Shown here one piece after another: positions 2,272 through 51,383 of a stretch of 64,000 nt of DNA. Position 1 is the first letter of the stretch; every line of letters begins with the position of its first letter. Source of the stretch: Nostoc sp. HK-01 (GTDB taxonomy: Bacteria > Cyanobacteriota > Cyanobacteriia > Cyanobacteriales > Nostocaceae); assembly GCA_003990705.1 (NCBI GenBank), contig AP018318.1:4777501-4841500 (forward strand), given 5' to 3'. The translations under genes and the position numbers were made by a program. A model generated the notes under the pieces. It searched no databases. It saw only the letters and a list, made by a program, of their open reading frames with translations, and had not been told where the DNA came from.

Positions 2272-2366
2272 GTTTGTTATTCCTGATATTTATCATAAGT
2301 TATTAGCTCCAATACTTAATATATATTCCTTGTTAACAACTATTACATAATCCAGAGGACAACATA

Positions 2367-3752
2367 ATGATTACTACAGAATTATCTAAAATTACTGAGC
2401 TTATTCACAAACAACGAGAATTTTTTCAAACTGGAAAAACAAAAGATATAGGTTTTCGGTTAGAAAAACTCAGAACACTCAAACAAGCAATAGTTGAAAA
2501 TGAAACAGCTATTGCCCAAGCATTGCAAGCTGATTTTCATAAACCAGACTTTGAGTCTTACGCAACAGAAATCAGTGTTACTAAAGAAATTGATTATGCT
2601 ATCAAACATCTGCATTCATGGGCTAAACCTCAGAAAGCAGAAGTGCCAATAGAATTTTTTTCTTATTCAGCTAAAATTTATGCTGAACCTTTAGGAGTCG
2701 TTTTAATTATCGGCCCTTGGAATTATCCCTTTAATTTAATTATTGCACCTTTAGTAGGGGCGATCGCCGCAGGTAATTGTTCAATTCTCAAGCCTTCAGA
2801 AATTGCCCCCGCCACCTCTAGTTTATTAGCTCAGATGATGGGTAAATATTTTGAACCAGAGTTTATTACTGTAGTTGAAGGTGGAGTGGAAGCAAGTCAA
2901 AAACTACTCGCAGAAAAGTTTGATCATATCTTTTTTACTGGTGGTACATCTGTTGGCAAAATTGTCATGGAAGCAGCAGCAAAACATCTCACACCAGTTA
3001 CTTTAGAATTAGGCGGCAAAAGCCCTTGTATTGTTGATGCTGATATAAATCTAGAACATACAATCAGACGCATTACTTGGGGGAAATTTATTAATGCCGG
3101 ACAAACTTGTGTTGCACCTGACTATCTGTTGGTTGATAAAAAAATCAAACCAGATTTAATCAATGGCTTGAAAAAAAGCATTACAGAATTTTATGGAGAT
3201 AATCCCCAAAATAGTAGCGATTATGCCAGAATCATCAGTCAAAAACATTGTGAAAGGTTAATTAAACTTCTCGATAAAGGGGAAATTATTGTTGGTGGAG
3301 AAAGCCAATTAGAAGAACGCTACATTGCTCCCACAATTATTGATCAAGTCTCGTTAACAGACCCAGTGATGCAGGAAGAAATTTTTGGCCCAATTTTACC
3401 TATAATTGAATATACAGATATTAAAGAAGCGATCGCCTTAATTAATTCCAAACCCAAACCCTTAGCTTTATACTTATTCTCACAAAACAAAAACCTGCAA
3501 CAGCGAGTTTTACAAGAAACTTCTTCTGGTGGTGTTTGTCTTAACGACACAGTACTGCATGTAGGTGTCTCATCTTTACCCTTTGGTGGTGTTGGTGATA
3601 GCGGTATTGGTAACTATCATGGCAAAGCTGGTTTTGATACCTTTTCTCACCATAAAAGCGTCCTCCGCAACTCCTTCTGGCTAGATTTAAAATGGCGCTA
3701 CGCTCCATATCAAGGCAAATTAGCTTTCTTGAAACGACTAATTGGGTCATAA
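2367..3752 (+). CDS. Aldehyde dehydrogenase (class 3-like)
   Basis: A 461-residue NAD(P)-dependent aldehyde dehydrogenase that oxidises aldehydes to carboxylates. The nucleophile is C248 in AGQTCVAP and the general base is E214 in TLELGGKSP. The coenzyme motif GPWNYPFNL (about 116-124) and FTGGTSVGK (about 190-198) are present. Length, the PWNYPF signature and the C-terminal hydrophobic tail fit the ALDH3/fatty-aldehyde group. Cyanobacterial members act on fatty aldehydes or apocarotenals; the actual substrate cannot be told from sequence. The ATG is preceded by AGAGGA about 8 bases upstream, which supports this start. The gene is monocistronic and convergent with the next. Confidence 0.93.
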   Translation: MITTELSKITELIHKQREFFQTGKTKDIGFRLEKLRTLKQAIVENETAIAQALQADFHKPDFESYATEISVTKEIDYAIKHLHSWAKPQKAEVPIEFFSYSAKIYAEPLGVVLIIGPWNYPFNLIIAPLVGAIAAGNCSILKPSEIAPATSSLLAQMMGKYFEPEFITVVEGGVEASQKLLAEKFDHIFFTGGTSVGKIVMEAAAKHLTPVTLELGGKSPCIVDADINLEHTIRRITWGKFINAGQTCVAPDYLLVDKKIKPDLINGLKKSITEFYGDNPQNSSDYARIISQKHCERLIKLLDKGEIIVGGESQLEERYIAPTIIDQVSLTDPVMQEEIFGPILPIIEYTDIKEAIALINSKPKPLALYLFSQNKNLQQRVLQETSSGGVCLNDTVLHVGVSSLPFGGVGDSGIGNYHGKAGFDTFSHHKSVLRNSFWLDLKWRYAPYQGKLAFLKRLIGS

Positions 3753-3758
3753 AAATAA

Positions 3759-3779
3759 AGGCGTTGCAATGCAACGCCT
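3759..3779 (-). terminator. Intrinsic terminator between convergent genes
   Basis: Perfect palindromic hairpin AGGCGTTGCA / TGCAACGCCT. On the minus strand it is followed by TTTATTTTT, so it mainly ends transcription of the molybdoenzyme gene. It may also stop the plus-strand dehydrogenase transcript. Confidence 0.75.
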
Positions 3780-3799
3780 CTTCATAAAAAAGCTTAAAA

Positions 3800-4399
3800 T
3801 CAAAACCTCCCACTATAGCGTTCTTCCGCCCAAGGTTCACCCCGGCGATGATAGCCGTTGCGCTCCCAAAAACCTAGTTCTTCTTTTTTCAGAAACTCTA
3901 AACCATTAATCCATTTGGCACTTTTCCAGGCGTAAAGGTGGGGGACAACTAAACGTAAGGGGCCACCGTGTTCTGCGGGTAATGGCTCTCCAAATAATTG
4001 AACAGCAAAGAAATTTTCTTCACGGACAAAATCTTCTATGGCGATATTCGTCGTGTAGTCACCATAGCAATGTTCCATCACATGGGCAGTCTCCGGTTCT
4101 AGCTCAATCAAATTCATGAAGTCTGTCACCTTAACCCCTGTCCACTTGACATCTAGTTTAGACCAGCGTGTGACACAGTGAAAATCTGCTGTAAATTCGT
4201 GCTGTGGTAGCGCCATAAACTCTGACCAAGTGAACACAGCAGGCTTGGCTGAACCCCAAACACGAAATTCCCACTCTTCTATATTGACTTGGGGAGTTGC
4301 ACCATAGGTGAGTACAGGGAAACCTTTAGCGAGGTGCTGCCCAGGCGGAACTCGTTCTCCTTGTTCTTTGTCTGGTTTTTGAAAAAACTTTCCTAACAT
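3800..4399 (-). CDS. Sulfite oxidase-like molybdopterin-dependent oxidoreductase
   Basis: A 199-residue protein with the oxidoreductase molybdopterin-binding fold (sulfite oxidase/YedY-like). C75 in DFHCVTRWS is the expected molybdenum ligand. The segment GEPLPAEHGGPLRLVVPHLYAWKSAKW is split around the typical cofactor contacts. It is shorter than eukaryotic sulfite oxidase and has no haem or dimerisation domain, and no signal peptide is evident. The frame is open to 4474, but ATG at 4399 has AGGAG just upstream and the extra 25 residues look unconserved, so the shorter start is chosen. The substrate is unknown. Confidence 0.88.
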   Translation of the reverse strand: MLGKFFQKPDKEQGERVPPGQHLAKGFPVLTYGATPQVNIEEWEFRVWGSAKPAVFTWSEFMALPQHEFTADFHCVTRWSKLDVKWTGVKVTDFMNLIELEPETAHVMEHCYGDYTTNIAIEDFVREENFFAVQLFGEPLPAEHGGPLRLVVPHLYAWKSAKWINGLEFLKKEELGFWERNGYHRRGEPWAEERYSGRF

Positions 4400-4834
4400 A
4401 TTCTCCTGAAGGGGTGTAGGGGTTTGGGGTGTAGGGGGTGAGAACAAATTATCTGCTTGCTTACACCCTGACACCCAATCTTAATCAGTAGTCTTTATGG
4501 GTAAGTCCTAACACTGTCAAATAGCCTGAGCATCAACAGATAGACTCAGGCAGAGAAAAAATATTAATTTTGCTGAACACCTAATAATTAGGACATCCAG
4601 ATACTTTACTGTTTGATTATGATTATCTGATCATCAGTCATGGGTAAGAGGTAATGGATAACGGATTTTCCGAATTATTCATTACCGATTTTTTATTTGC
4701 CCCATTAGCTGCTACACACTCAACATAAATTTTTAATTATTCAGGCAATCTACACAATTAACTGCCGAAAAGCCTGAGCGGTAAAAGTCACCGCTCAAAT
4801 CTTCGGTGATGCTAGTGTTTTTCCCAATTGGAGA
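4400..4834. other. Intergenic region between rpmF and the molybdoenzyme gene
   Basis: No gene seen. It holds a hairpin GCCTGAG / CTCAGGC (4524-4551) and the stronger rpmF hairpin at 4764-4806 listed separately. Confidence 0.5.
4764..4806 (-). terminator. Hairpin downstream of rpmF
   Basis: Perfect 8-base stem TGAGCGGT / ACCGCTCA (4775-4782, 4790-4797), with an outer CCGAA / TTCGG pairing. It lies about 30-70 bases after the rpmF stop on the minus strand. The T-tract is short (GGCTTTT), so it is a probable rather than strong terminator. Confidence 0.55.
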
Positions 4835-5008
4835 TTATGACTCTTCGTCCTCTTCTTCAGGAGTAGGATAGACAAAGGTAGAACGTCCAGTCAAAATTGA
4901 CTTGCCCAGGGAGAGAGCTTTTTGAGCTTCAACAGCAGCTTTATGTCTCCAAGTAGCTCGACGTTTATCGCGTTTAGATTTAGAAGTTTTCTTCTTAGGA
5001 ACAGCCAT
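4835..5008 (-). CDS. rpmF: 50S ribosomal protein L32
   Basis: A 57-residue basic protein starting [20 protein letters not shown], the classical bL32 N-terminus, with an acidic cyanobacterial tail ending in EEEDEES. The four-Cys zinc ribbon of some L32 proteins is absent, as is usual in cyanobacteria. The frame is open to 5083, but the family start is the ATG at 5008. The gene is transcribed in the same direction as the hypothetical gene at 5150-5659, with a gap of about 140 bases. Confidence 0.95.
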
Positions 5009-5149
5009 AGTAGCGGATATCGCAGTTTTTGACAACCTTTCTATTCTAAGCCATCTATTGGCATCTGCAATGGTATTCCCCACCAGGAAGGAATTTTTAA
5101 ACGCAAAAGAGCGCTAAGGTCAACGCAGATGAGCGCAAAGAGGAAAATA

Positions 5150-5659
5150 TTACGGTGTGGTAGCTGCTGGTGCGACTGTGGTGATTGGAGGAATATTAAC
5201 GGGATTGGTGGGAGTTGTTTCAAAGAATAAAAGCGATCGCGCGGTTTTAAAGTAAGTCGCCCAACGTTGAGCATCAGGACGAGAACGCCATTGGGGACGG
5301 CTAACTTCTAAAGCTAAAATTGGTGCGATCGCCCCGTAGCTTTGTACGGAAATAATAATCGATACATCTGTAGCTAATATATCTTGATCAAAACTGCGTT
5401 GCGCGGCTGCTCTAGCTGTTGCTTCGGCTCTCCTGAGTGTAGTTTCATAGCTTTCATCTGGTAATCTATCAATAATTAAGTCAACTCTGGCGGTGTAAGC
5501 TCTGACTATCTGAGGTGAAATTACTTCTGCCACAATCCATACAGGTAGGCTAGAAAAGAGCAAAAATATTAATGGAAATATCCGGATTTTTTTGGCAACT
5601 TGGCTAATAAATAAACAGGAAATGATCGATGATAGTTGGTAAGCAACATTCCTGGTCAT
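5150..5659 (-). CDS. Membrane-anchored hypothetical protein
   Basis: A 169-residue protein of unknown function. A long hydrophobic N-terminal segment (about 10-45) is probably a signal anchor or uncleaved signal. It is followed by an alpha/beta region with a long helix rich in Ala/Arg (RRAEATARAAAQRSF) and a strand-like VSIIISVQSYGAI, then a Pro/Thr-rich C-terminus. The layout fits a periplasmic domain tethered to the inner membrane. AGGAG lies about 10 bases before the ATG. It looks like a conserved cyanobacterial orphan; no enzyme motif is visible. Confidence 0.75.
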   Translation of the reverse strand: MTRNVAYQLSSIISCLFISQVAKKIRIFPLIFLLFSSLPVWIVAEVISPQIVRAYTARVDLIIDRLPDESYETTLRRAEATARAAAQRSFDQDILATDVSIIISVQSYGAIAPILALEVSRPQWRSRPDAQRWATYFKTARSLLFFETTPTNPVNIPPITTVAPAATTP

Positions 5660-5858
5660 AACCTTAAAGCTCCTGACTAATTAATGGCCTGTAATTGAGA
5701 TTGTCTGAGAATTTTTACTGAAATTAAAGGCAATAAAAATTACTTAGTTTTTAGGGTTCAATGAGAAACTCTTAGACTATAAGACATAGGTTAGCTTTGT
5801 TTTTTCAGCAAAGCCAACCGCAATTTTAGGCAAGTCAACCACAACCTACAAAGAGCGG

Positions 5859-7799
5859 ATGGCAAATTACTGGGCGATCGCAATCGGCATCAATCAATAT
5901 CAATTCTTTCAACCCTTACGTTGCGCCCAAGCTGATGCCGAGGCGCTAAAAGATTTTTTGGTTCAAGAAACAGGTTTTTCACCCCAACGCTGTCTATTAA
6001 TGACAGATACTTCGCCGCCTATTAGTGATAGATCTACTTATCCGACAAAAGACAATATTCTGTTGTTACTAGAAGATTTAGCAGCGGCCTGTTGGCAACC
6101 AGGCGACCATCTGTGGTTGTTCTTTAGCGGTTATGGTGTCAACTATGGGGGACAAGATTACTTGATGCCAGTGGAAGGCAATCCTGAGTTAGTGCAGGAA
6201 ACTGGCATAGAAATGCGATCGCTCATGCAAAGTCTCCAAATCGCTGACCTCAATGTTTTGGTGCTGCTAGATATTAACCGCGCTTCCAGTACCCAAGCCG
6301 ATGCGACTGTTGGACAAGAAACCATTGAACTAGCTCAAGAATTACAACTAGCTACGATTGTATCTTGCGAACCAGAACAATTTTCCCGTGAAAGTAGTGA
6401 GTTAGGTTACGGATTTTTTACCGCTGCTTTGTTAGCCGCTTTGCGTTCTGGTCATGGCAGTAGTTTGGCGGATTTAAACAGTTATTTAAATGTTTTTACT
6501 CCAGAATTATGCCAACACTATTGGCGACCTACACAAAGTCCAGTAGCGATCATACCGGCTAATCCTCCCACCATCTTGCCGCAGCTAGAGGTGAATCATA
6601 CAGTTACAGAAGTTCCCAGTACCCTGGAACCAACTGAAGCTAAACCCCATGAATTAGAGTCAACTGAAGCTGAAGGAAGTATTTTTCCAGAGGAAAACTT
6701 TGCTATGGCTTTGGCGGCTCCCCCGTTAGCACCATCACCCAAAAATCCAGCTAATTCTGCACACATAAGTATTTGGGAAGAATCCCCGGCTATACAATCT
6801 GTTGTTCGTGCTAGATCCCCGCAGCTGACTTTCCCAAATCTCCCTCTGGGAGAACAACAACTATCTAAATCACCAGATTTAGTAGCCAAACAAGAGTATG
6901 GCAACCAACAACCGCAATCATCGATCCCCTCCCCAGAAACGGGTATGGGAGGTAGGTTCATTCCTGATGTTCCCCAAGCCTATGTCTCTCGTTTATCTCA
7001 GAAAAAGATAAAAAACTCATTGTGGCAGCAGTTTGCTTTTTGGGGAAGTGGCATGATGTTGCTAACAGCTTTAGTGACAGTAGTTGTGCTTCGCAATCAA
7101 GAAAAATTTGTTGCGGGTAGAGAGGCGTTATCAGCCTCGCCTCATGATCGGTTAATTCCAGCCAAAAATCAGTCTAATGCCCAAATTACCTCTCTGTCTG
7201 AGTCCAAGAGTCGCAATCAAGCAGTATTGGACTTGGCGAAAATGTCTCTCAGGCAAACTCAAGCCACAGATCTGAGTTTAGCGATCGCCACTGCACGGAA
7301 AATTCAGGCGGGTGAACCACTTTACGAACAAGCCCAAGAAAATATCAATATTTGGAGTAATATGATCCTCAATCTAGCTGAGGGTCGGGCTAAACAAAGA
7401 CAATATGCTAATGCGATCGCCGCAGCGCAATTAATCAGCAAAGAAGGCTCACTTTATCCCCAAGCGCAAGCAGCCATTAAGCAGTGGCGACAAGAAGCCA
7501 AGCAATATCTTGCTAACAAAACTTTGTTAGAAGCCGCTAATGCCTTAATTAAACCAGAACAAGCTTCTACATATAATCGTGCCATTGAAGTTGCCAAGCG
7601 TGTTCCCCAAGGTCAACCAGGATTTGATTTGGCGCAAAAATCAATCAACAAATGGAGTGAGAAAATTTTAGATCTGGCGAAAAGTCGCGCGGCTGAAGGT
7701 GATCCCCAGGCTGCCATTGCCACAGCTACCTTAGTTCCAGAAGAGACATCTGTTTACGAAGATGCTCAAGAAGCAATCCGCAAATGGCAAAAAAAATAG
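5859..7799 (+). CDS. Caspase-like (orthocaspase, peptidase C14-like) protein with lost catalytic dyad
   Basis: A 646-residue protein with an N-terminal caspase p20-like domain (1-235). It opens with the family start YWAIAIGINQY and contains HLWLFFSGYG and LLDINRAS. Active members have FSGHG and DACR/DSCS at these positions. Here the catalytic His is Y92 and the catalytic Cys is N140, so peptidase activity is unlikely. A low-complexity linker (240-385), one transmembrane helix (about 392-411) and four helical repeats of about 45 residues (455-645) follow; each repeat has a Y..AQ..I..W core and ILxLAxxRA. This suggests a membrane-tethered scaffold or regulator rather than an enzyme. It ends at a very strong bidirectional hairpin. 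Confidence 0.88.
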   Translation: MANYWAIAIGINQYQFFQPLRCAQADAEALKDFLVQETGFSPQRCLLMTDTSPPISDRSTYPTKDNILLLLEDLAAACWQPGDHLWLFFSGYGVNYGGQDYLMPVEGNPELVQETGIEMRSLMQSLQIADLNVLVLLDINRASSTQADATVGQETIELAQELQLATIVSCEPEQFSRESSELGYGFFTAALLAALRSGHGSSLADLNSYLNVFTPELCQHYWRPTQSPVAIIPANPPTILPQLEVNHTVTEVPSTLEPTEAKPHELESTEAEGSIFPEENFAMALAAPPLAPSPKNPANSAHISIWEESPAIQSVVRARSPQLTFPNLPLGEQQLSKSPDLVAKQEYGNQQPQSSIPSPETGMGGRFIPDVPQAYVSRLSQKKIKNSLWQQFAFWGSGMMLLTALVTVVVLRNQEKFVAGREALSASPHDRLIPAKNQSNAQITSLSESKSRNQAVLDLAKMSLRQTQATDLSLAIATARKIQAGEPLYEQAQENINIWSNMILNLAEGRAKQRQYANAIAAAQLISKEGSLYPQAQAAIKQWRQEAKQYLANKTLLEAANALIKPEQASTYNRAIEVAKRVPQGQPGFDLAQKSINKWSEKILDLAKSRAAEGDPQAAIATATLVPEETSVYEDAQEAIRKWQKK

Positions 7800-40316: not shown

Positions 40317-41774
40317 TTAAGCCAAAATGCAACCAGTTCGGGGAGGAACAGTGAGAGAAAGTTGTTTAGTTTCTCCTGCGTTATTCCATTCAAATTCTGC
40401 GTAGCCAAATAGCAGCTTGCTAGGTTGAGCTTGCAAACTAGTAATATCTATGTTTGCTTGAGCAGATGCTGTGCCAGTATTAACGACTATCATTAATTCT
40501 TCTGTACCTAAAGTGCGGGCAAAAACATATAGTGTTCCTTGGGCATAAAGAACTTGATAATGTCCTATCCGCAAAGCTTGGTAAGCTTGACGAATGTCAA
40601 TTAATTGGCGGTGAGTTTGCAAAATTTCTTGATCCCAATTCGCTTCTAACGGAAAGCCGCGTCGTGAGTCGGGGTCTATTGCACCGGGTAAACCCACTTC
40701 ATCACCATAATAAATACTGGGCGCACCAGGAAAGGTGAGCAAAAGTAAAGTTGATAATTGGATGCTGGCTTTATCGCCACCTGCAATAGTCATTAAACGT
40801 GCGGTATCGTGACTAGCAAGTAAGTTGAGTTGCGTTAGCTGAATTTCCCAAGGATATAGTTGCAATAGTTCTTGGATTTTAGTGGCGTATTCAGCAGCAA
40901 ATAAAGGTGGATAAGGTTGATAGTCACGACTTTGAACTTGTTCTAAGACTACGCGATCGCCTGCGGTAAAGGCAATTGTCGGCCCGGCAAATAAATAATT
41001 CATTACGCCGTCAAATTGTGTCCCATCCAACCACTCACGCGAATCTCCCCACACTTCACCCACAATATAAGCTTCGGGGTTAATAGCTTTAACTCGCTCT
41101 CGAAATTCTTGCCAAAAACCAGGAGTTTTAATTTCAAATGGCACATCTAACCGCCAGCCATCAATGCCGAATTTTATCCAATATTCGGCAATTTCCATGA
41201 TATATTCTCTCACTTCTGGGTTGTCGTGATTAAACACTGGCAAAGCCCGATTATCCGCCCAACCTTCATAATTAGCCGGAAACTCACCGTTGTAAGCAGA
41301 AAGCGGCCAGCCGTGGATTTTAAACCAATTTACCCAAGGCGAATGGGGGCCATTTTCTAAAACATCATGGAAAAAGAAAAACCCACGACTTGAATGATTA
41401 AACACCCCATCTAAAACTACTTTGATATTCCGTTGATGGGCTGCTTCTAACAATTCTTTAAACGCTTCATTTCCTCCCAACAACGGATCAACTTGGTAAT
41501 AATCATGGGTATGATAACGGTGATTACTAGCCGACTGAAAAATGGGCGTGAAATAAATAGCGTTAATTCCTAAACCTTGGATATGGTCTAGTCCCTCAAT
41601 AATGCCCCACAAATCGCCCCCTTTATAACCTTGGAGTGTAGGCATTGCTTCCCAATCTTCCCAACGAGCTTCGTGTAGCAACCGTTTACGCGGCTGTTTG
41701 CTTCTGGCAAAGCGGTCTGGAAAGATTTGGTAAAAAACAGCGTGCTTAACCCAGTCTGGTGTTTGAATTTGCAT
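40317..41774 (-). CDS. Alpha-amylase family glycoside hydrolase (GH13, neopullulanase/cyclomaltodextrinase-like)
   Basis: 485 residues with a (beta/alpha)8 barrel. The catalytic residues are D210 in DGWRLDVP (nucleophile), E240 in IVGEVWGD (acid/base) and D323 in ASHDTARL (transition-state stabiliser). The start WVKHAVFYQIFPDRF is typical of the neopullulanase-related group. The N-terminal starch-binding domain of true neopullulanase is missing. It probably acts on cytoplasmic alpha-glucans or oligosaccharides from glycogen; no signal peptide. It is divergent from the antiporter gene, with a 374-base gap. Confidence 0.92.
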   Translation of the reverse strand: MQIQTPDWVKHAVFYQIFPDRFARSKQPRKRLLHEARWEDWEAMPTLQGYKGGDLWGIIEGLDHIQGLGINAIYFTPIFQSASNHRYHTHDYYQVDPLLGGNEAFKELLEAAHQRNIKVVLDGVFNHSSRGFFFFHDVLENGPHSPWVNWFKIHGWPLSAYNGEFPANYEGWADNRALPVFNHDNPEVREYIMEIAEYWIKFGIDGWRLDVPFEIKTPGFWQEFRERVKAINPEAYIVGEVWGDSREWLDGTQFDGVMNYLFAGPTIAFTAGDRVVLEQVQSRDYQPYPPLFAAEYATKIQELLQLYPWEIQLTQLNLLASHDTARLMTIAGGDKASIQLSTLLLLTFPGAPSIYYGDEVGLPGAIDPDSRRGFPLEANWDQEILQTHRQLIDIRQAYQALRIGHYQVLYAQGTLYVFARTLGTEELMIVVNTGTASAQANIDITSLQAQPSKLLFGYAEFEWNNAGETKQLSLTVPPRTGCILA

Positions 41775-45573: not shown

Positions 45574-46270
45574 TTTGCCTCCCAAAAACATGAATGAGTC
45601 AACAAAGCTTTAATCTTTGCTGGATTTGTTTTTAGTCTTAGCAACAAATATGACGAGAAAATGACTATCTATAGATAAATTGTTGACGCTTGATAGGATG
45701 AAAAGCTGACTTTACATAACTTGCTCTAAGAGTTACTTACCAACAATTTTGTATTAATTACTACGAACTTTTGGCTTTATAATTCTTGATGTTTAGTTAT
45801 AACATTTAGGAATTACATAAAATAAACTCTTACCTTTACCTATTCATCGCCAAAAGATGTATCTTCCCAAAACGAGCAAATTTATAACTTTTCCGTAATC
45901 ATCGGGACTGTCACTGAATTACTAAAAAGCACTTCTAAAAGAAACATTTAATTTAGACACTCATGACCAAGTAATTCAACTAATCATCTCTACTATATTT
46001 GTTGACGCTAGGATATTTCAGAAGTTACAACAACATCAAATGAGGAGAGAAATAATTCATGAAAATTAGTGAGAAATGAAAATTTTAGCATTAAAATTTA
46101 TGAGTTATTGATTCATTCATAAACTGATTTATGGCTATCTAGTAAAACCATAGATAACCATAAATTCTCCAGAAATAAAGCAGCAAACATCACCTGAATT
46201 TTCCTAATTTAGGGTGAATTCTCTTACTGAAAAAATTACTGTTTTCCCAAGAATAGAGGTTAAAACCACA
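45574..46270. other. 697-base region upstream of the subtilase gene
   Basis: No full gene. A GAGGAG Shine-Dalgarno sequence at about 46042-46047 precedes two overlapping mini-frames (46059-46079, 46076-46111). An inverted repeat ATTTATGG-TATCTA / TAGATA-CCATAAAT lies at 46127-46165. The frame of the subtilase opens with GTG at 46214, but ATG 46271 is a better start. See findings. Confidence 0.45.
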
Positions 46271-47998
46271 ATGAGACACGAAAAACTTTCTCCTGGGCTG
46301 CTGTTGGCAGTGGAAGATTATCAACATGAAGGGCTACCAGCTTTGATGACACACAAGCGATCGCTTGGGATCATGGCACCTAAAAGTATTGTCAAGCCTA
46401 CCAAAAGCCTGGTGTTTATCTACTGTGACGATGACGCAGATTTAAGCCACTTGGCACAATATGGCATAGAAGTTAATCAAAATGCAGGCCATGTGCGTAC
46501 AGCTTTCCTCCCCATTGAAAGTTTAGATGCTTTATCAGAAGAACCAGCCATCCAGCGGATTAAACCATCGCGTAAGCTCAAACTGCGGATGGATGTTGCA
46601 CCCCAAGCCGTAAAATTACCAGAATTTAAGAACAAAACTGGACTAAGTGGCAAGGGTGTAATTATCGGTGTGGTTGACAGTGGGATTGACCCAAAACATC
46701 CTGCTTTTGCTGGGCGGATTTTACGGTTATGGGATCAAACCCTACCGGGGCCAGGAGTTAAAGAAGGTGGTTATGGTGCGGAATTAACAGATGCCTTACT
46801 CACTGTTTCCCAAGATACTGAGGGTCATGGTACTCATGTTGCAGGTATCGCGTCTGGTGCTGATGTTACTTACGGTGGTGTCGCACCAGACGCAGAATTA
46901 GTAATTGTCAAATCTGACTTACAGGATGCTCACATTGCTGATGCTATCCGCTACGTTTTTCGAGTAGCTGGTGAGTTAGGACGGCCAGCAGTAGTCAATC
47001 TCAGTTTAGGTGGACACGCGGATGCTCACGATGGTAGCGACTCCCTTTCTAAAGTGATTGACGCAGAAACTGGCCCTGGTAGAATTGTTTGCTGTGCAGC
47101 TGGTAACGAAGGCAACGACAATATTCATGGTCAAGCTACCATAACCAGTGGACGAATGAAAGGAATGCGGTTTAATGTGCCGTTAAATCAAGTCGGTATT
47201 GTCTGGTTGAATGCTTGGTATTCCAAAGACAGCCAATTAGAAGTTTCCTTACGCAGTCCTAACGGTTTTGTCACTCCTTTCCAAAAAATTATTACTAATG
47301 GGAACCCAACACTAGATCATCAACTCCCCGATGCAAGGGTGCAAATTGTCACGCCCGGCCCAGATGCGTCCAACGGCGACTATAATTTCTTTGTCCAGAT
47401 TCGCGGAAATGGCCCCTCGCCAGTGATGGGAGGTATTTGGCAGCTAAGAGTCCGTAACACATCTTCTAATGATACCCGCTTAGATGTATGGACATTAGAT
47501 GATACTTCCTCAGTGTTTTTTACGGGTACTAGTGTTAAAGATTCCCTTAAAATTGGTGCGCCAGGATGTGCTGACAGTGCAATTACTGTTGCTGCCTATA
47601 CCACCAAAGTTAAGTACACAGATATTGATAACCAAGTGCGAGAAATGGGTTTAGAACCCAACTGCATTTCTGAATTCAGTAGTGAAGGGCCGTTACGTAA
47701 TGATGCCCAAAAACCGGATGTTGCTGCACCTGGAGCAATGATTGTGTCTGCTCTGTCTTCTAATGCCAATGCTGACCGTTCGATGACGATTAATTCTAAG
47801 TTTTTGGCGATGGCTGGCACTAGTATGGCGACACCTTTTGTTACAGGATTGGTAGCATTATTATTGCAGCGCGATCGCAACTTAGATCCCCAAGCCATCA
47901 AAGAGCTATTCCGCAAAAACAGTTCAATTCCTGGTAAACCAGCTGGCACCTTTGATAATAAATGGGGTTATGGCTTGATTAATACTGAGAATCTGTAA
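46271..47998 (+). CDS. S8 family serine peptidase (subtilase) with N-terminal propeptide-like domain
   Basis: About 575 residues from ATG 46271 (AGAGG lies 11 bases upstream; a GTG at 46214 is less likely). The S8 triad is present: Asp in VVDSGIDP, His in EGHGTHVAG and Ser in AGTSMATPF. The segment before it (residues about 1-110) resembles an inhibitor I9-type propeptide and is similar over its length to the 98-residue protein at 51087. An insertion of about 150 residues between the oxyanion Asn region and the Ser motif is usual in this group. No signal peptide is visible, so it may be intracellular. A strong terminator follows. Confidence 0.92.
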   Translation: MRHEKLSPGLLLAVEDYQHEGLPALMTHKRSLGIMAPKSIVKPTKSLVFIYCDDDADLSHLAQYGIEVNQNAGHVRTAFLPIESLDALSEEPAIQRIKPSRKLKLRMDVAPQAVKLPEFKNKTGLSGKGVIIGVVDSGIDPKHPAFAGRILRLWDQTLPGPGVKEGGYGAELTDALLTVSQDTEGHGTHVAGIASGADVTYGGVAPDAELVIVKSDLQDAHIADAIRYVFRVAGELGRPAVVNLSLGGHADAHDGSDSLSKVIDAETGPGRIVCCAAGNEGNDNIHGQATITSGRMKGMRFNVPLNQVGIVWLNAWYSKDSQLEVSLRSPNGFVTPFQKIITNGNPTLDHQLPDARVQIVTPGPDASNGDYNFFVQIRGNGPSPVMGGIWQLRVRNTSSNDTRLDVWTLDDTSSVFFTGTSVKDSLKIGAPGCADSAITVAAYTTKVKYTDIDNQVREMGLEPNCISEFSSEGPLRNDAQKPDVAAPGAMIVSALSSNANADRSMTINSKFLAMAGTSMATPFVTGLVALLLQRDRNLDPQAIKELFRKNSSIPGKPAGTFDNKWGYGLINTENL

Positions 47999-48048
47999 TT
48001 AATTGTAAAACCAAGTATATTGCGCTCATACACACAATTACTTAGTTT

Positions 48049-48078
48049 AAGGCAGGTAATTTTTTACCTGCCTTTTAA
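48049..48078 (+). terminator. Intrinsic terminator after the subtilase gene
   Basis: AAGGCAGGTAA / TTACCTGCCTT, 11-base perfect stem with a 4-base T loop, followed by TT. It lies 50 bases after the stop codon. It separates the subtilase from the AT-rich pair. Confidence 0.85.
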
Positions 48079-48234
48079 AAAATTATAATCAATATCTAAA
48101 TTGTAATACTTAAGTATAAATGTAAATAATTGTAATTTAAGTATAAATTTTTTCTAAAATTACTTACATATTGCAGTTAAGACATAGTATTTTTTAACTT
48201 ATACAGATTTAATCTAGTTTAAATAAGTAATAGC

Positions 48235-48876
48235 ATGATTAAAATTATTATTGGAGAAATGGCCGCATCTAAAGGCGTATCTTTAGATGAAATTAGCAGA
48301 TTATCCGGAATTTCTATAGAAGAAATTCAGTCATATTCAACTATAGAAAATATAACCGAGGATACTTTTGTCAACCTCAGAAAAATAGCTGCAAGACTCA
48401 ATTTACCCGTATTAGATTTAGTGCAGCCTATAGCTAATCAGTTGGCTTTCAAATTTAAAATTAGTGAAATGGCAAAAACTAAGGGATTAACACTAGAAGA
48501 GTTAAGCGAAAAATCTAGGATACAACCAGCTATTATTGAATTTTACAATACTCAGGCTATATGCCAACAAACCCTGACAAACCCTCTATGCCAAACTCAC
48601 CTTGGCAAGATTACCGAGGTTTTAAATTGCTCTTTAGAAGAATTGCAATTTAGTGAAGAATTACCTCCAACATATTTCCGTCTAGAAGAAATAGCAAAAG
48701 AGAAGGGGTTAACATTAGACGAGTTAAGTCTATTAATAGAATTACCTAAGGGATTTGTAGATTTAATTGCAACTATACGTATTGATTACAGCACATTATC
48801 TTGCGAATTTTGTTGTAAATATTGGGGTTCTAGGCAGTGTGGTGACTGTAAATGCAATAAAAATCTAGAATCTTAA
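48235..48876 (+). CDS. Protein with three HTH-like repeats and a Cys-rich tail
   Basis: 213 residues of unknown function. Three degenerate XRE-like units repeat the pattern (E)MAxxKGxxLxEL/IS...: residues about 7-40 (AASKGVSLDEISRLSGIS), 80-112 (AKTKGLTLEELSEKSRIQ) and 150-182 (AKEKGLTLDELSLLIELP). The C-terminal 20 residues carry 6 cysteines (CEFCCKYWGSRQCGDCKC), suggesting a zinc or disulfide cluster. Base composition is clearly more AT-rich than the neighbours. It is 23 bases ahead of the pentapeptide-repeat gene and most likely co-transcribed with it. A regulator or DNA-binding sensor is an inference. Confidence 0.8.
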   Translation: MIKIIIGEMAASKGVSLDEISRLSGISIEEIQSYSTIENITEDTFVNLRKIAARLNLPVLDLVQPIANQLAFKFKISEMAKTKGLTLEELSEKSRIQPAIIEFYNTQAICQQTLTNPLCQTHLGKITEVLNCSLEELQFSEELPPTYFRLEEIAKEKGLTLDELSLLIELPKGFVDLIATIRIDYSTLSCEFCCKYWGSRQCGDCKCNKNLES

Positions 48877-48899
48877 TATCTATATTTAAGGAAACTAGT

Positions 48900-50921
48900 G
48901 TGCAAAAACTTAAAAGTCTTCAGTCTTTTAATGAAAAAATAATTCAAAAAAAATTTAAAAATGCAAAAGCAGGACACAGTTTAATTAAAAAAAGTTTTAT
49001 AGCCTTATTGGGGATAATAACATCATTCTTTTGCAGTATTTTACCTATATTATCTGCTAACTCGTTAATAATTATAATAGATAATTTAATTAAAAATTTT
49101 ATCTTATTACCTTTTATTCTCTTAAGCTTAGTTATATATATAAGTAGTATTATTTTTATAATAACAAAAGGATTTAAAACAAGTATTATTGTTTCAATAG
49201 TTATACTTATTATTTTTGGAAATATTATTACAAGTTTTTTTAGAACAGAGAGTAACTATATAATAGAAATTTTAATTCAAACCCTCTTTCTTGGATTCGC
49301 TATAGCTTTTGCTTGGGTTGGAATAATTACCACAGCATTTTCCATAACTTTTAATTCTCTACTTTTAGGGAGATGCTTAGAGATATTAACTTTTTTTAAC
49401 ATTGTTATTACATCTGTAATCTTGACAGCCTGCTCAAAAGATATTTCTAACTCAGAATATGCAAAACCTTTTATTTTAATAGTAGCAATATTAGTGATAT
49501 TAGCTGGTAAAACTGTTGCTAGACTTGCAATTAAAGGTTCAACAAAATTTGATTGGATTAGGGAGATAACAGTATTTTGGGCTGCAACAGGTGGAACATC
49601 TTTTTATGGATGTGATTTAACAGATACTTGTTTTGATGGAGCAGATTTAAAACATACAGATTTTAGAGAGACTAATCTTACTCGTACTAGTTTTAAAGGT
49701 GCGACTGGTTTAGATTTAGCGCGATTGCAAGGAACTATTTTAGATGATCCTAAAGTTAGGAAACTGCTGACTACTAATGATGGTAAAGAAGAAGATTTTA
49801 CAGGCGCAAATTTACAAGGTGCAAATTTACAAGGTGCAGATTTAAGAGAAGCAATTTTAGTTAAAGCACAATTATTGGATGCAGATTTATCAGGAGCCTT
49901 ACTGACAGATGCTTGTATTCAAGATTGGAATATTAACTACAATACAAGATTCCAAAACGTTGAATGCAAGCGTGTATATTTAAAACTTAATCAAAAAGGG
50001 CGATTTTATGAGCCAAAACCAGATAGTGGAGAATTCCAACCTGGTGAATTTGAAAAATGGATTACAGATGTTAGAGATACGATAGACTTAATTTTTCAAA
50101 ATGGGCTGAATTGGAGAGCCTTTGCATTTTCTCTAACTCAAACTGCTATTAACAATGATGGATTAGGTTTATCAGTTCGCAGTATAGAAAATAAAGGTGA
50201 TGGTGTAGTTGTAGCTAAAGTAGGAGTTTCTTTAGAAACTAACAAGACTGCTATTCATGAAGAAATTACTCATCATTATAATCAAGCAGTAAAGGCAATT
50301 TCAGCTAAATATGAACTTATACTACAAGCTAAAGATGGAGAAATAGAAAGACTTACAAACTTCTACAATTCTCAACAACAATTCATGCAAGGATTAATTA
50401 CCAGTATTGCCGAAACAAAAAAAGAAGTGACTATCAGAGGTGAAGGCAATCGTGTATATATGATGAATCAAGCAGGAGATATTATGGAAAGTAATAAACA
50501 AAATATTAATGCTGGTGGCGATGTAGATATGTTTAGCGGTAACAAAGTCTCAATCGGTGGAGATGTGACGAACTCTAATGTCACGTTGGCTGATGCAAAT
50601 AGCCAAGTTAATAACTCTATCCAACAATTGAGGGATCTTAGCGCTGATAGTAGCAATCAGTTAGCAGAAATTTTAACTGCTTTACAGAAATCTATTACAA
50701 ATGATGTAGCACTTTCTGACAGTCAAAAAAAAGAAGCTTTAGAAGCTGTAGAAACTATTGCAGAAGAAGCTAAAAAGCCAGCAAATGAACGAGTCATGAA
50801 ACTTTGTACAATGGCACTCAATGCACTTAAAGGTGTAACATCCGCGGTTACAGATGCCAGTAAATTAGGAGAATTACTAAAAACCTATTTACCAACTCTG
50901 AAAAGTATATTAGGCTTATAA
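48900..50921 (+). CDS. Six-TM pentapeptide-repeat protein with glycine-rich strand and helical C-terminal tail
   Basis: 673 residues, GTG start with AAGGA 6 bases upstream. About six TM helices (31-57, 64-89, 94-114, 119-150, 156-177, 188-207) precede two pentapeptide-repeat blocks (231-275, 298-342: A(D/N)L-type units such as TGANLQGANLQGADLREA). A helical region (370-505), a short strand-rich stretch with INAGGDV and SIGGDV (about 509-570), and an amphipathic helical C-terminus (570-673) follow. The Gly-Gly-strand plus helix tail resembles C-terminal modules of cyanobacterial conflict-type proteins (recalled, unverified). It is AT-rich. A membrane effector or signal receptor paired with the upstream HTH protein is possible. 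Confidence 0.8.
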   Translation: MQKLKSLQSFNEKIIQKKFKNAKAGHSLIKKSFIALLGIITSFFCSILPILSANSLIIIIDNLIKNFILLPFILLSLVIYISSIIFIITKGFKTSIIVSIVILIIFGNIITSFFRTESNYIIEILIQTLFLGFAIAFAWVGIITTAFSITFNSLLLGRCLEILTFFNIVITSVILTACSKDISNSEYAKPFILIVAILVILAGKTVARLAIKGSTKFDWIREITVFWAATGGTSFYGCDLTDTCFDGADLKHTDFRETNLTRTSFKGATGLDLARLQGTILDDPKVRKLLTTNDGKEEDFTGANLQGANLQGADLREAILVKAQLLDADLSGALLTDACIQDWNINYNTRFQNVECKRVYLKLNQKGRFYEPKPDSGEFQPGEFEKWITDVRDTIDLIFQNGLNWRAFAFSLTQTAINNDGLGLSVRSIENKGDGVVVAKVGVSLETNKTAIHEEITHHYNQAVKAISAKYELILQAKDGEIERLTNFYNSQQQFMQGLITSIAETKKEVTIRGEGNRVYMMNQAGDIMESNKQNINAGGDVDMFSGNKVSIGGDVTNSNVTLADANSQVNNSIQQLRDLSADSSNQLAEILTALQKSITNDVALSDSQKKEALEAVETIAEEAKKPANERVMKLCTMALNALKGVTSAVTDASKLGELLKTYLPTLKSILGL

Positions 50922-51086
50922 GCACCAAAAAAATGTCGATCGCCTCATCTAGGAAAAAATCGGTAATAAGGCGTATAGATTTGTGTATTACGTCTGTATA
51001 AGGGTAGGTAATCAAAACTTAAAAATTTGATAGCTTAATGTTAGGCCAGTTTCCAACTTGCCTACCCTTTTACTAAGGAAATACTT

Positions 51087-51383
51087 ATGAACTATCAAAA
51101 GCTAGGCGCAGCACTGGCGATGGCACTTAATGATGTTCAAGATCCAGCCACGCCAAGTTTAACGGTATTTATCCATACTGAACCAATTTCCGAGGCGGCG
51201 ATCGCAATTTTACAAAGTTTCGATGTTAGTGATGTTACAAGCGATAAAGATACTTTTACTGCCACCTTATCAGCAAATGCAATTTCCCAGCTATCAGAAC
51301 AAACTTGGGTAAAATCTTTACAACTCTCCCAAAAGTTAGGGTTGCTGAATAATGGAAAAAGAATGCAAAGTTTCAAAATTTGA
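51087..51383 (+). CDS. Stand-alone subtilase propeptide-like (inhibitor I9-like) small protein
   Basis: 98 residues. It parallels the N-terminal domain of the subtilase at 46271: N-terminal KL...L..A..D.Q, then SLTVFIH (subtilase SLVFIY), a central phi-x-V turn, T-A-x-L followed by I..LSE, and S-x-KLxL near the end. AAGGA lies 8 bases before the ATG. Free propeptide-like proteins can act as chaperones or inhibitors of subtilases. It lies 3 kb downstream of the subtilase, with the AT-rich pair between. No other function is visible. Confidence 0.72.
   Translation: MNYQKLGAALAMALNDVQDPATPSLTVFIHTEPISEAAIAILQSFDVSDVTSDKDTFTATLSANAISQLSEQTWVKSLQLSQKLGLLNNGKRMQSFKI

Follow-up and report, generated by a model that had tools for sequence, protein, structure and literature searches.

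The 64,000-nucleotide stretch of Nostoc sp. HK-01 DNA analyzed here as a whole, hereafter the window (AP018318.1, positions 4,777,501 to 4,841,500), contains two adjacent genes on the plus strand. Gene A, at 48235..48876, encodes a protein of 213 residues with three units resembling helix-turn-helix (HTH) motifs and a Cys-rich tail; gene B, at 48900..50921, encodes a protein of 673 residues with a membrane domain, two pentapeptide blocks, and a conserved cytosolic half. The 23-base gap between them had been noted in a sequence-only reading of the locus, whose outline, in which an HTH protein is paired with one in the membrane, is judged to be right. Alignments of relatives from three families indicate that the tail of A and the membrane domain of B are swapped jointly on a constant B body.

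The degenerate HTH units of A are of Xre/C1 type and lie at approximately residues 1-64, 70-138, and 146-186. A matches Pfam HTH_26 at 8.7e-7, with both HTH_26 and HTH_3 above the cut-off, and HTH_26 is found in all 21 members of the A alignment (E ≤ 0.01). An AlphaFold model of moderate quality (pLDDT 63, from a two-row alignment) has sets of helices that can be read as three HTH-like units, and in Foldseek searches single units match Xre/C1 structures with probabilities of up to 1.00, none with an E-value below 0.001. These results sustain the three degenerate units that had been seen from the letters alone. The six-Cys tail is likewise as described: six cysteines are present in the tail of the window protein, and 17 of 21 distinct relatives have at least two within their last 20 residues. 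The A gene of G326 (L051; genomes and loci are designated by G and L numbers) stops before the tail, the profile search reading through one stop, and this tail may have been lost through a stop. Matches of A in PADLOC 2.0.0, to capH (3.9e-6) and mad1 (0.0047), both run through the HTH parts alone.

B opens with a hypervariable membrane domain (residues 1-222, 48900..49565), in which hydropathy gives eight overlapping stretches from residue 27 to residue 213 that are read as six to seven helices, in line with the six transmembrane (TM) helices proposed earlier. The two pentapeptide-repeat blocks of the same proposal are located by Pfam at about 232-272 and 299-337, within residues 226-345 (49575..49934; PF00805, 1.3e-19); they are present in all 26 members, and pentapeptide families alone lie above the cut-off. 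There follow a conserved region (residues 346-510, 49935..50429) for which the alignment predicts helices and strands and a long helix, and which has no Pfam family among those listed, and then a Gly-rich strand segment with a helical tail (residues 511-673, 50430..50918) that matches the tail of a CHAT-domain protein. Over 17 loci the mean pairwise identity of the membrane domain is 29%, compared with 56-70% for the three other parts of B. The genome of the window also encodes a B paralogue (L011 6777-8819) with 30-35% identity, an Ala/Val-rich membrane domain, and no A match alongside; its tail matches PADLOC PDC-M14B at 3.2e-5. The B gene of Nostoc sp. CHAB 5715 (L012 2553-4555) has its N-terminal part divided between two reading frames, which reflects either an interrupted gene or an assembly error.

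A and B are a linked system. When an A profile was searched against 388 genomes of the order, 26 matched at E ≤ 1e-10, comprising 15 strong matches (E < 1e-60) and 11 weak ones (E 1e-11 to 1e-16, short frames with stops) that were dropped as ordinary Xre genes. The two genes are regarded as a linked unit because B lies next downstream of A in all 15 strong matches, including G109, whose B has 607 residues; the adjacency recurs in six family groups, and the earlier treatment of the two genes as one unit is thereby upheld. The family f1 is labelled Nostocaceae after its named matches (Nostoc and Calothrix records). Among its 217 genomes, 17 match A at E ≤ 1e-5, of which 12 are strong (here E < 1e-24) and five were again dropped as ordinary Xre genes. 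B is on the same contig in 11 of the 12. The twelfth, G497, has A near a contig end beside SUB, a subtilase gene, and B on another contig beside PRO, a stand-alone copy of the SUB prodomain. Some of these genomes coincide with named records: G501 and G497 are identical letter for letter to the CHAB 5715 and NMS4 loci over the compared stretches, and G482 holds the A-B stretch of plasmid pNPM4. B proteins of the wider family are commoner, with their C-terminal half found in 194 of the 388 genomes (E ≤ 1e-10).

The principal observation concerns how A and B vary. In three families, near relatives that are 91-94% identical in nucleotide (nt) sequence over the rest of B fall to 46-63% in the membrane domain, and at least the C-terminal part of A is replaced together with that domain. 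The loci L084 and L089, for example, share 98% identity over 6 kb ending 108 nt before A and 97% over 5.7 kb starting 77 nt before the pentapeptides; by part, identity is 98% in SUB, 94% in the rest of B, and 94% in PRO, but 57% in A and 54% in the membrane domain, and windowed identity within B jumps near codon 200. Corresponding values for the rest of B and the membrane domain are 93% and 47% in family f9 (L047/L048) and 94% and 63% in family f2 (L058/L061). Pairs of the same allele type show no such drop or a small one: identities of A, membrane domain, and rest are 83, 81, and 93% for L046/L084, 89, 91, and 96% for L058/L064, and 97, 97, and 92% for L063/L064. Across nine swapped comparisons the 5′ edges of the exchanged piece, taken as BLAST match ends, lie at -323, -108, +145/146, +553, and +582 relative to the start of A, and the 3′ edges lie 70-117 nt before the pentapeptides, with one at -319; the end of A falls within the swapped piece in all nine. 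The tail type of A in f2 switches with the membrane domain, being Cys in L058, L063, and L064 and Trp/Arg in L061 and L062.

Trees of 17 loci give the same picture, with the proviso that the groups submitted to approximately unbiased (AU) tests were picked after the identities were known. The group {L050, L051, L087, L088, L089} has 100% bootstrap support in A and in the membrane domain and is rejected by the rest of B (p-AU 1.4e-107). Conversely, {L046, L084, L089} is supported by the rest of B and rejected by A (4.7e-13) and by the membrane domain (7e-4), and {window, L088} is rejected by A and the membrane domain but not by the rest of B (p 0.27). Identities of A and the membrane domain are correlated with r = 0.80 over the 17 loci, with four A rows omitted (L012, L061, L063, and L082), whereas the membrane domain and the three other parts of B give r = 0.33-0.42. 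The ratio of nonsynonymous to synonymous substitution rates (dN/dS) in the membrane domain is 0.48-0.86, against 0.19-0.46 in the rest of B, and is the higher in nine of nine within-allele-type pairs; in the five pairs that have SUB it is 0.50-0.73, against 0.07-0.16 in SUB, and higher in every one. Positive selection was considered as an explanation of these raised ratios and was rejected, since their intervals include or lie below 1.

A further feature of B is that its tail is not confined to B. In G109 (L182 5981-9964) a gene with a caspase-like CHAT domain (PF12770, 9.7e-11) stands just upstream of A, and its product carries a C-terminal B-type tail that matches residues 527-673 of the window B (33.8% identity over 160 residues, E 4e-16) and reaches 66% identity with B proteins of the wider family; the B protein encoded next to it ends in a tail of another type. 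Between SUB and PRO in G463 lie a CHAT protein and a B-family protein that have a different short C-terminal strand motif in common (E 5e-6), perhaps a homotypic tag. CHAT proteases are a class of protein used in bacterial cell-death and defense systems. The tail, being found on a CHAT protein too, is therefore seen as a portable module that ties B to this class.

A self-protecting effector or a role in defense is favored because of the joint swapping, the recurrent loss and plasmid copy described below, and the CHAT-shared tail. The pair may be a polymorphic two-gene membrane system, in which B is an effector and A its matched partner, either an adaptor or an antitoxin; we hold this reading tentatively, at a little short of an even chance. 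The shared tail led us to raise that estimate slightly and to lower, by a hair, the already small one for a structural protein, which is taken up with HglK below. B would present a variable TM domain on a near-constant cytosolic part made up of a pentapeptide helix, an alpha/beta region, and a strand-plus-helix tail, and the tail, common to the CHAT protein, may bring partners together. A would be the cognate cytosolic partner, with its tandem HTH-like units serving as a scaffold and its C-terminal tail recognizing the matching TM domain and so holding B in check. If A were lost or mismatched, or if an outside trigger intervened, B would be released to act at the membrane, with dormancy, leakage, or abortive death as the outcome, and its constant cytosolic half would carry out or relay the response. 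This scheme starts from the linkage of the genes, their joint swapping in three families, the decay of B, the independence of the pair from the subtilase, and the occurrence of the B tail on a caspase-like protein, all of which are observed; from them we infer physical contact between A and B, effector action, oligomerization, and a role in defense or incompatibility.

Several points weigh against an effector and matched partner. Co-swapping of the A tail and the membrane domain may arise partly or wholly from the adjacency of their DNA, swap edges are BLAST match ends, and swapped pairs within one family share events, so that independent events are few. Nowhere is dN/dS clearly above 1. So far as examined, B proteins of the wider family do without A: none of 16 such loci matches the A of the window at E ≤ 1e-4, although a search of this kind could miss a strongly diverged A. 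The AlphaFold model of B (pLDDT 38, from a four-row alignment) is unusable, and B has no match in PADLOC 2.0.0 at E ≤ 0.1. Finally, the neighbors of A-B that were looked at are mostly non-defense genes, the commonest being alpha-amylase-like genes and glgC; the exceptions are the CHAT gene in G109 and NACHT genes on the plasmid.

The variability of the membrane domain lends itself to another explanation, in which that domain senses a variable outside cue or a protein of an invader, and B releases A to regulate transcription. The Xre/C1 character of the HTH units and the membrane location of the variable domain accord with such a sensor, as does the conservation of HTH1, encoded by the first ~145 nt of A, in two f9 comparisons where the remainder of A is exchanged. 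The protein itself is less accommodating. It is acidic both in the window and in each of 21 distinct relatives (net charge -2 to -17), and the recognition-helix position of HTH2, as placed by us, lacks Lys and Arg in all 21 rows; the HTH1 position lacks them in seven of 21. Moreover, the part always swapped with the membrane domain is the end of A, not HTH1, and no target gene of A came to light, although none was searched for. We regard the sensor as possible but doubtful. The "likely regulator" of the sequence-only reading is left uncertain by the acidic charge and by HTH2.

Matched segments that are swapped as a block between near-constant flanks point to recognition under diversifying pressure. 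The signature extends over three cyanobacterial families, and within the scope of our searches the pair is nowhere named as a system. A more specific and rather improbable reading is that A-B is a cyanobacterial incompatibility locus, resembling those of allorecognition. Membrane-domain allele classes with their matched tails would then be common to genera and reshuffled at one chromosomal place, and the classes would decide tolerance of neighboring or fusing lineages or of incoming DNA, with the caspase-like protein as a possible executioner acting through the shared tail. The natural matched and mismatched A/B combinations make the role of such pentapeptide membrane proteins testable.

In Nostocaceae the pair stands between SUB and PRO. 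SUB (46214..47998, plus strand) is an S8 subtilase (PF00082, 5.8e-46) with its own prodomain at about residues 20-125; no signal peptide was seen by eye. PRO (51087..51383, plus strand) encodes 98 residues that match residues 20-125 of SUB (hhalign 96.6%, E 6.8e-10), which bears out its earlier description as a propeptide-like gene, and the terminator reported before A corresponds to a hairpin read by eye in the SUB/A interval (48050..48076, plus strand). SUB is found at E ≤ 1e-100 in 156 of the 217 family genomes and PRO in 157; among 150 of the latter that were listed, 127 have both on one contig and strand. The intervening gap measures 48-665 bp in 104 of these, 1-10 kb in 20, and more in three, and A-B occupies 10 of the 20 gaps of 1-10 kb. 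SUB and a free-standing PRO are thus adjacent in 104 of 127 genomes and may represent a protease accompanied by its own inhibitor or folding aid as a distinct protein. Other cargo is found in the same gap. L138 (G463, 2279-6391) has a CHAT-like protein, a trypsin-like gene on the opposite strand (by eye), and a B-family protein; L140 (G029) and L139 (G510) have, by eye, caspase-like/FGE-like and CHAT-TPR genes; and the 15.8-kb insert of L142 (G442) opens with a second subtilase-like open reading frame (ORF), again by eye, followed by large ORFs. The gap may be an insertion hotspot.

Outside the family the setting is different. At 11 A-B loci for which stretches were fetched, A has an alpha-amylase-like gene next to it in 10, B is followed by glgC in six, and SUB is absent from all 11 genomes (E ≤ 1e-60). 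glgC follows PRO in nine of nine Nostocaceae relatives; it was looked for in the window and not found. The window does have an amylase-like gene, named by eye, 6.5 kb upstream of A-B (40320..41774, minus strand), which is 77% identical to the gene beside A-B in G074 and serves as a synteny landmark. These surroundings bear on the idea that SUB and the free prodomain are working parts of the system, for instance that SUB cleaves and thereby activates B. It draws on the placement of 10 of the 12 strong family A copies between SUB and PRO on one contig, on an eleventh copy in which A adjoins SUB on one contig and B adjoins PRO on a second, and on the G463 slot, whose cargo joins a B-family protein to CHAT and trypsin-like proteins. 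The idea is nevertheless hardly credible given the 11 A-B genomes outside the family in which SUB is missing and the 104 family genomes whose SUB-PRO gap is too small for A-B.

How the pair came to be so patchily distributed is partly recorded in sites that lack it. Of 21 sites with a SUB-PRO gap of 388-665 bp, 20 were fetched for a search for B fragments and G010 was searched separately. Fragments at E < 1e-3 were found in six of the 20, five with an in-frame stop and the sixth consisting of the last 30 residues alone; L200 (E 0.003) and L198 (0.026) were excluded from the count, and the G010 site gave no B fragment. Because these fragments remain, the patchy spread reflects, at least partly, loss. 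The sequence-only reading had proposed acquisition of the pair by transfer. Recent transfer of the whole pair is rejected, since A-B keeps the same amylase-side place in several families and B fragments persist in relatives that lack the pair; for the same reasons the pair does not look like a recent island. A is indeed absent, with a SUB-PRO gap of 121-664 bp, from all 10 other genomes of the genus, as that proposal would predict, but absence within the family is at least partly loss. The moving part, judging from the alignments, is the segment spanning the A tail and the membrane domain rather than the whole pair.

Base composition leads to a similar view. The AT-richness of the pair relative to its flanks, reported earlier, is evident: GC content is 0.332 in A, 0.246 in B residues 1-222, and 0.344 in the rest of B, compared with 0.403 in the window and 0.448 in upstream SUB, and it is below 0.30 only in the 1-kb windows starting at 48001-49001 (step 250 bases). 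Third-position GC also departs from the flank (A 0.249, B 0.169, SUB 0.354). However, A and the membrane part of B are GC-poorer than their own locus in all 15 relatives measured, and because the bias is typical of relatives as well it is no sign of recent arrival.

A repeat of the SUB end may be a trace of insertion or excision. A 3′ copy at 50958..50992 is contiguous with the PRO leader and matches the post-SUB sequence of same-genus genomes without the pair; the 5′ copy of the SUB end and the sequence beyond, at 47990..48024, is in the same register and degenerate in the window. With 300 shuffles that keep base composition alone, the repeat before PRO beats all or all but one in eight of nine occupied relatives, themselves interrelated, and is not significant in L046 or in the window (198/300). 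Other settings give 0-3/300 in the same eight and fail again in L046 and the window. Among 13 other long or mid-size gaps the repeat occurs only in L138 (0/300) and L136 (3/300), a match in L146 being discounted as self-overlap. The repeat suggests either an old insertion or a route of excision. The notion that A-B is an element that entered at the 3′ end of SUB lost weight, since L046 and the window have no clear repeat and the amylase-side loci have no SUB.

A plasmid-borne copy is found in strain N6, whose chromosomal SUB-PRO gap is 117 bp and whose A-B pair lies on the mobilizable plasmid pNPM4 (L015/L152). A NACHT gene follows the pair there across the record start, with a second NACHT gene ~4 kb on, and the B tail differs from that of chromosomal copies. 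This copy is among the grounds for considering A-B a selfish addiction module, which would have diversified to escape resident antitoxins, would spread by plasmid and recombination, and would decay when lost; the decayed B fragments in six relatives and the patchy presence of A, strong in 12 of 217 family genomes, fit that description. Yet the retention of one chromosomal place across families is unusual for an addiction element, and A is present on one of 72,556 plasmid records. An addiction module thus seems unlikely. A phage origin was rejected: no relative was confirmed in viral contigs, and the best 10 of 96 phage records cover 18-23% of B, around the pentapeptides.

Within the search terms and library used, neither the literature nor library entries describe the A-B pair, in agreement with the initial impression that it belongs to no named system, and in PADLOC 2.0.0 the two genes do not both match one anti-phage system. 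The pair matches none of the named systems tested, TRADD-N conflict proteins and HglK being the nearest known. TRADD-N conflict systems are common in multicellular cyanobacteria (PMC7159879, PMC8195603). They resemble A-B in joining a constant module to parts that vary among close relatives, in counting pentapeptide repeats and caspase-superfamily domains among their partners, and in having an alpha/beta domain flanked by two other regions (PMC7159879, PMC8195603). TRADD-N proteins are characterized by an RRM-like fold with a tiny-Ser motif in the beta2-beta3 turn. In the low-confidence model of the B alpha/beta region two strands lie between helices, and by eye the turn is KGDG, without Ser. 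Membership was rejected on two grounds: no TRADD-N model was found for 26 B proteins (E ≤ 1) among the Pfam families listed, 25 of 34, and a profile of the alpha/beta region gave no TRADD-N chain in the PDB, the matches at E ≤ 10 being four others. A further difference is that what varies in A-B is a membrane domain, exchanged along with the end of a second protein, of HTH type.

HglK is a septal membrane protein of Anabaena with four predicted TM helices and pentapeptide repeats, described in the relevant excerpts of PMC8145042 as having 727 residues, 36 repeats at its C-terminus, and a role in heterocysts and septa. Like HglK (PMC8145042), B is a membrane protein of cyanobacteria that combines TM helices at its N-terminus with pentapeptide repeats, and this gross architecture is what commends a septum or filament-architecture protein with a dedicated regulator, whose variation would be neutral or strain-adaptive. 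In place of a long C-terminal pentapeptide domain, B has two short mid-protein blocks followed by ~330 non-repeat residues, a long C-terminal half, and it has a linked partner, whereas no partner of HglK is mentioned in those excerpts. Most family genomes lack A-B, and the pair decays; nor would a structural protein be expected to have a block replaced while its flanks stay constant. A septum protein is therefore very unlikely.

The remaining comparisons concern one candidate entry and two classes of toxin loci. The C-terminal part of PDC-M14B, a PADLOC candidate, matches the tail of the own-genome B paralogue, and the window B gives no match to it. Library scans of A-B found no known toxin domain. 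Type II toxin-antitoxin pairs with Xre antitoxins have a small upstream HTH gene and a downstream partner in one short operon. The order of A and B, their 23-base gap, and their linkage in 15 of 15 cases conform to this layout, but B is a 673-residue membrane protein and A consists of tandem HTH units. In polymorphic toxin-immunity loci a variable segment that sets specificity is exchanged in one block with its matched partner, while the body stays constant. The A-B segment is likewise exchanged as a block on a constant body, with the difference that here the variable part is an N-terminal membrane domain.

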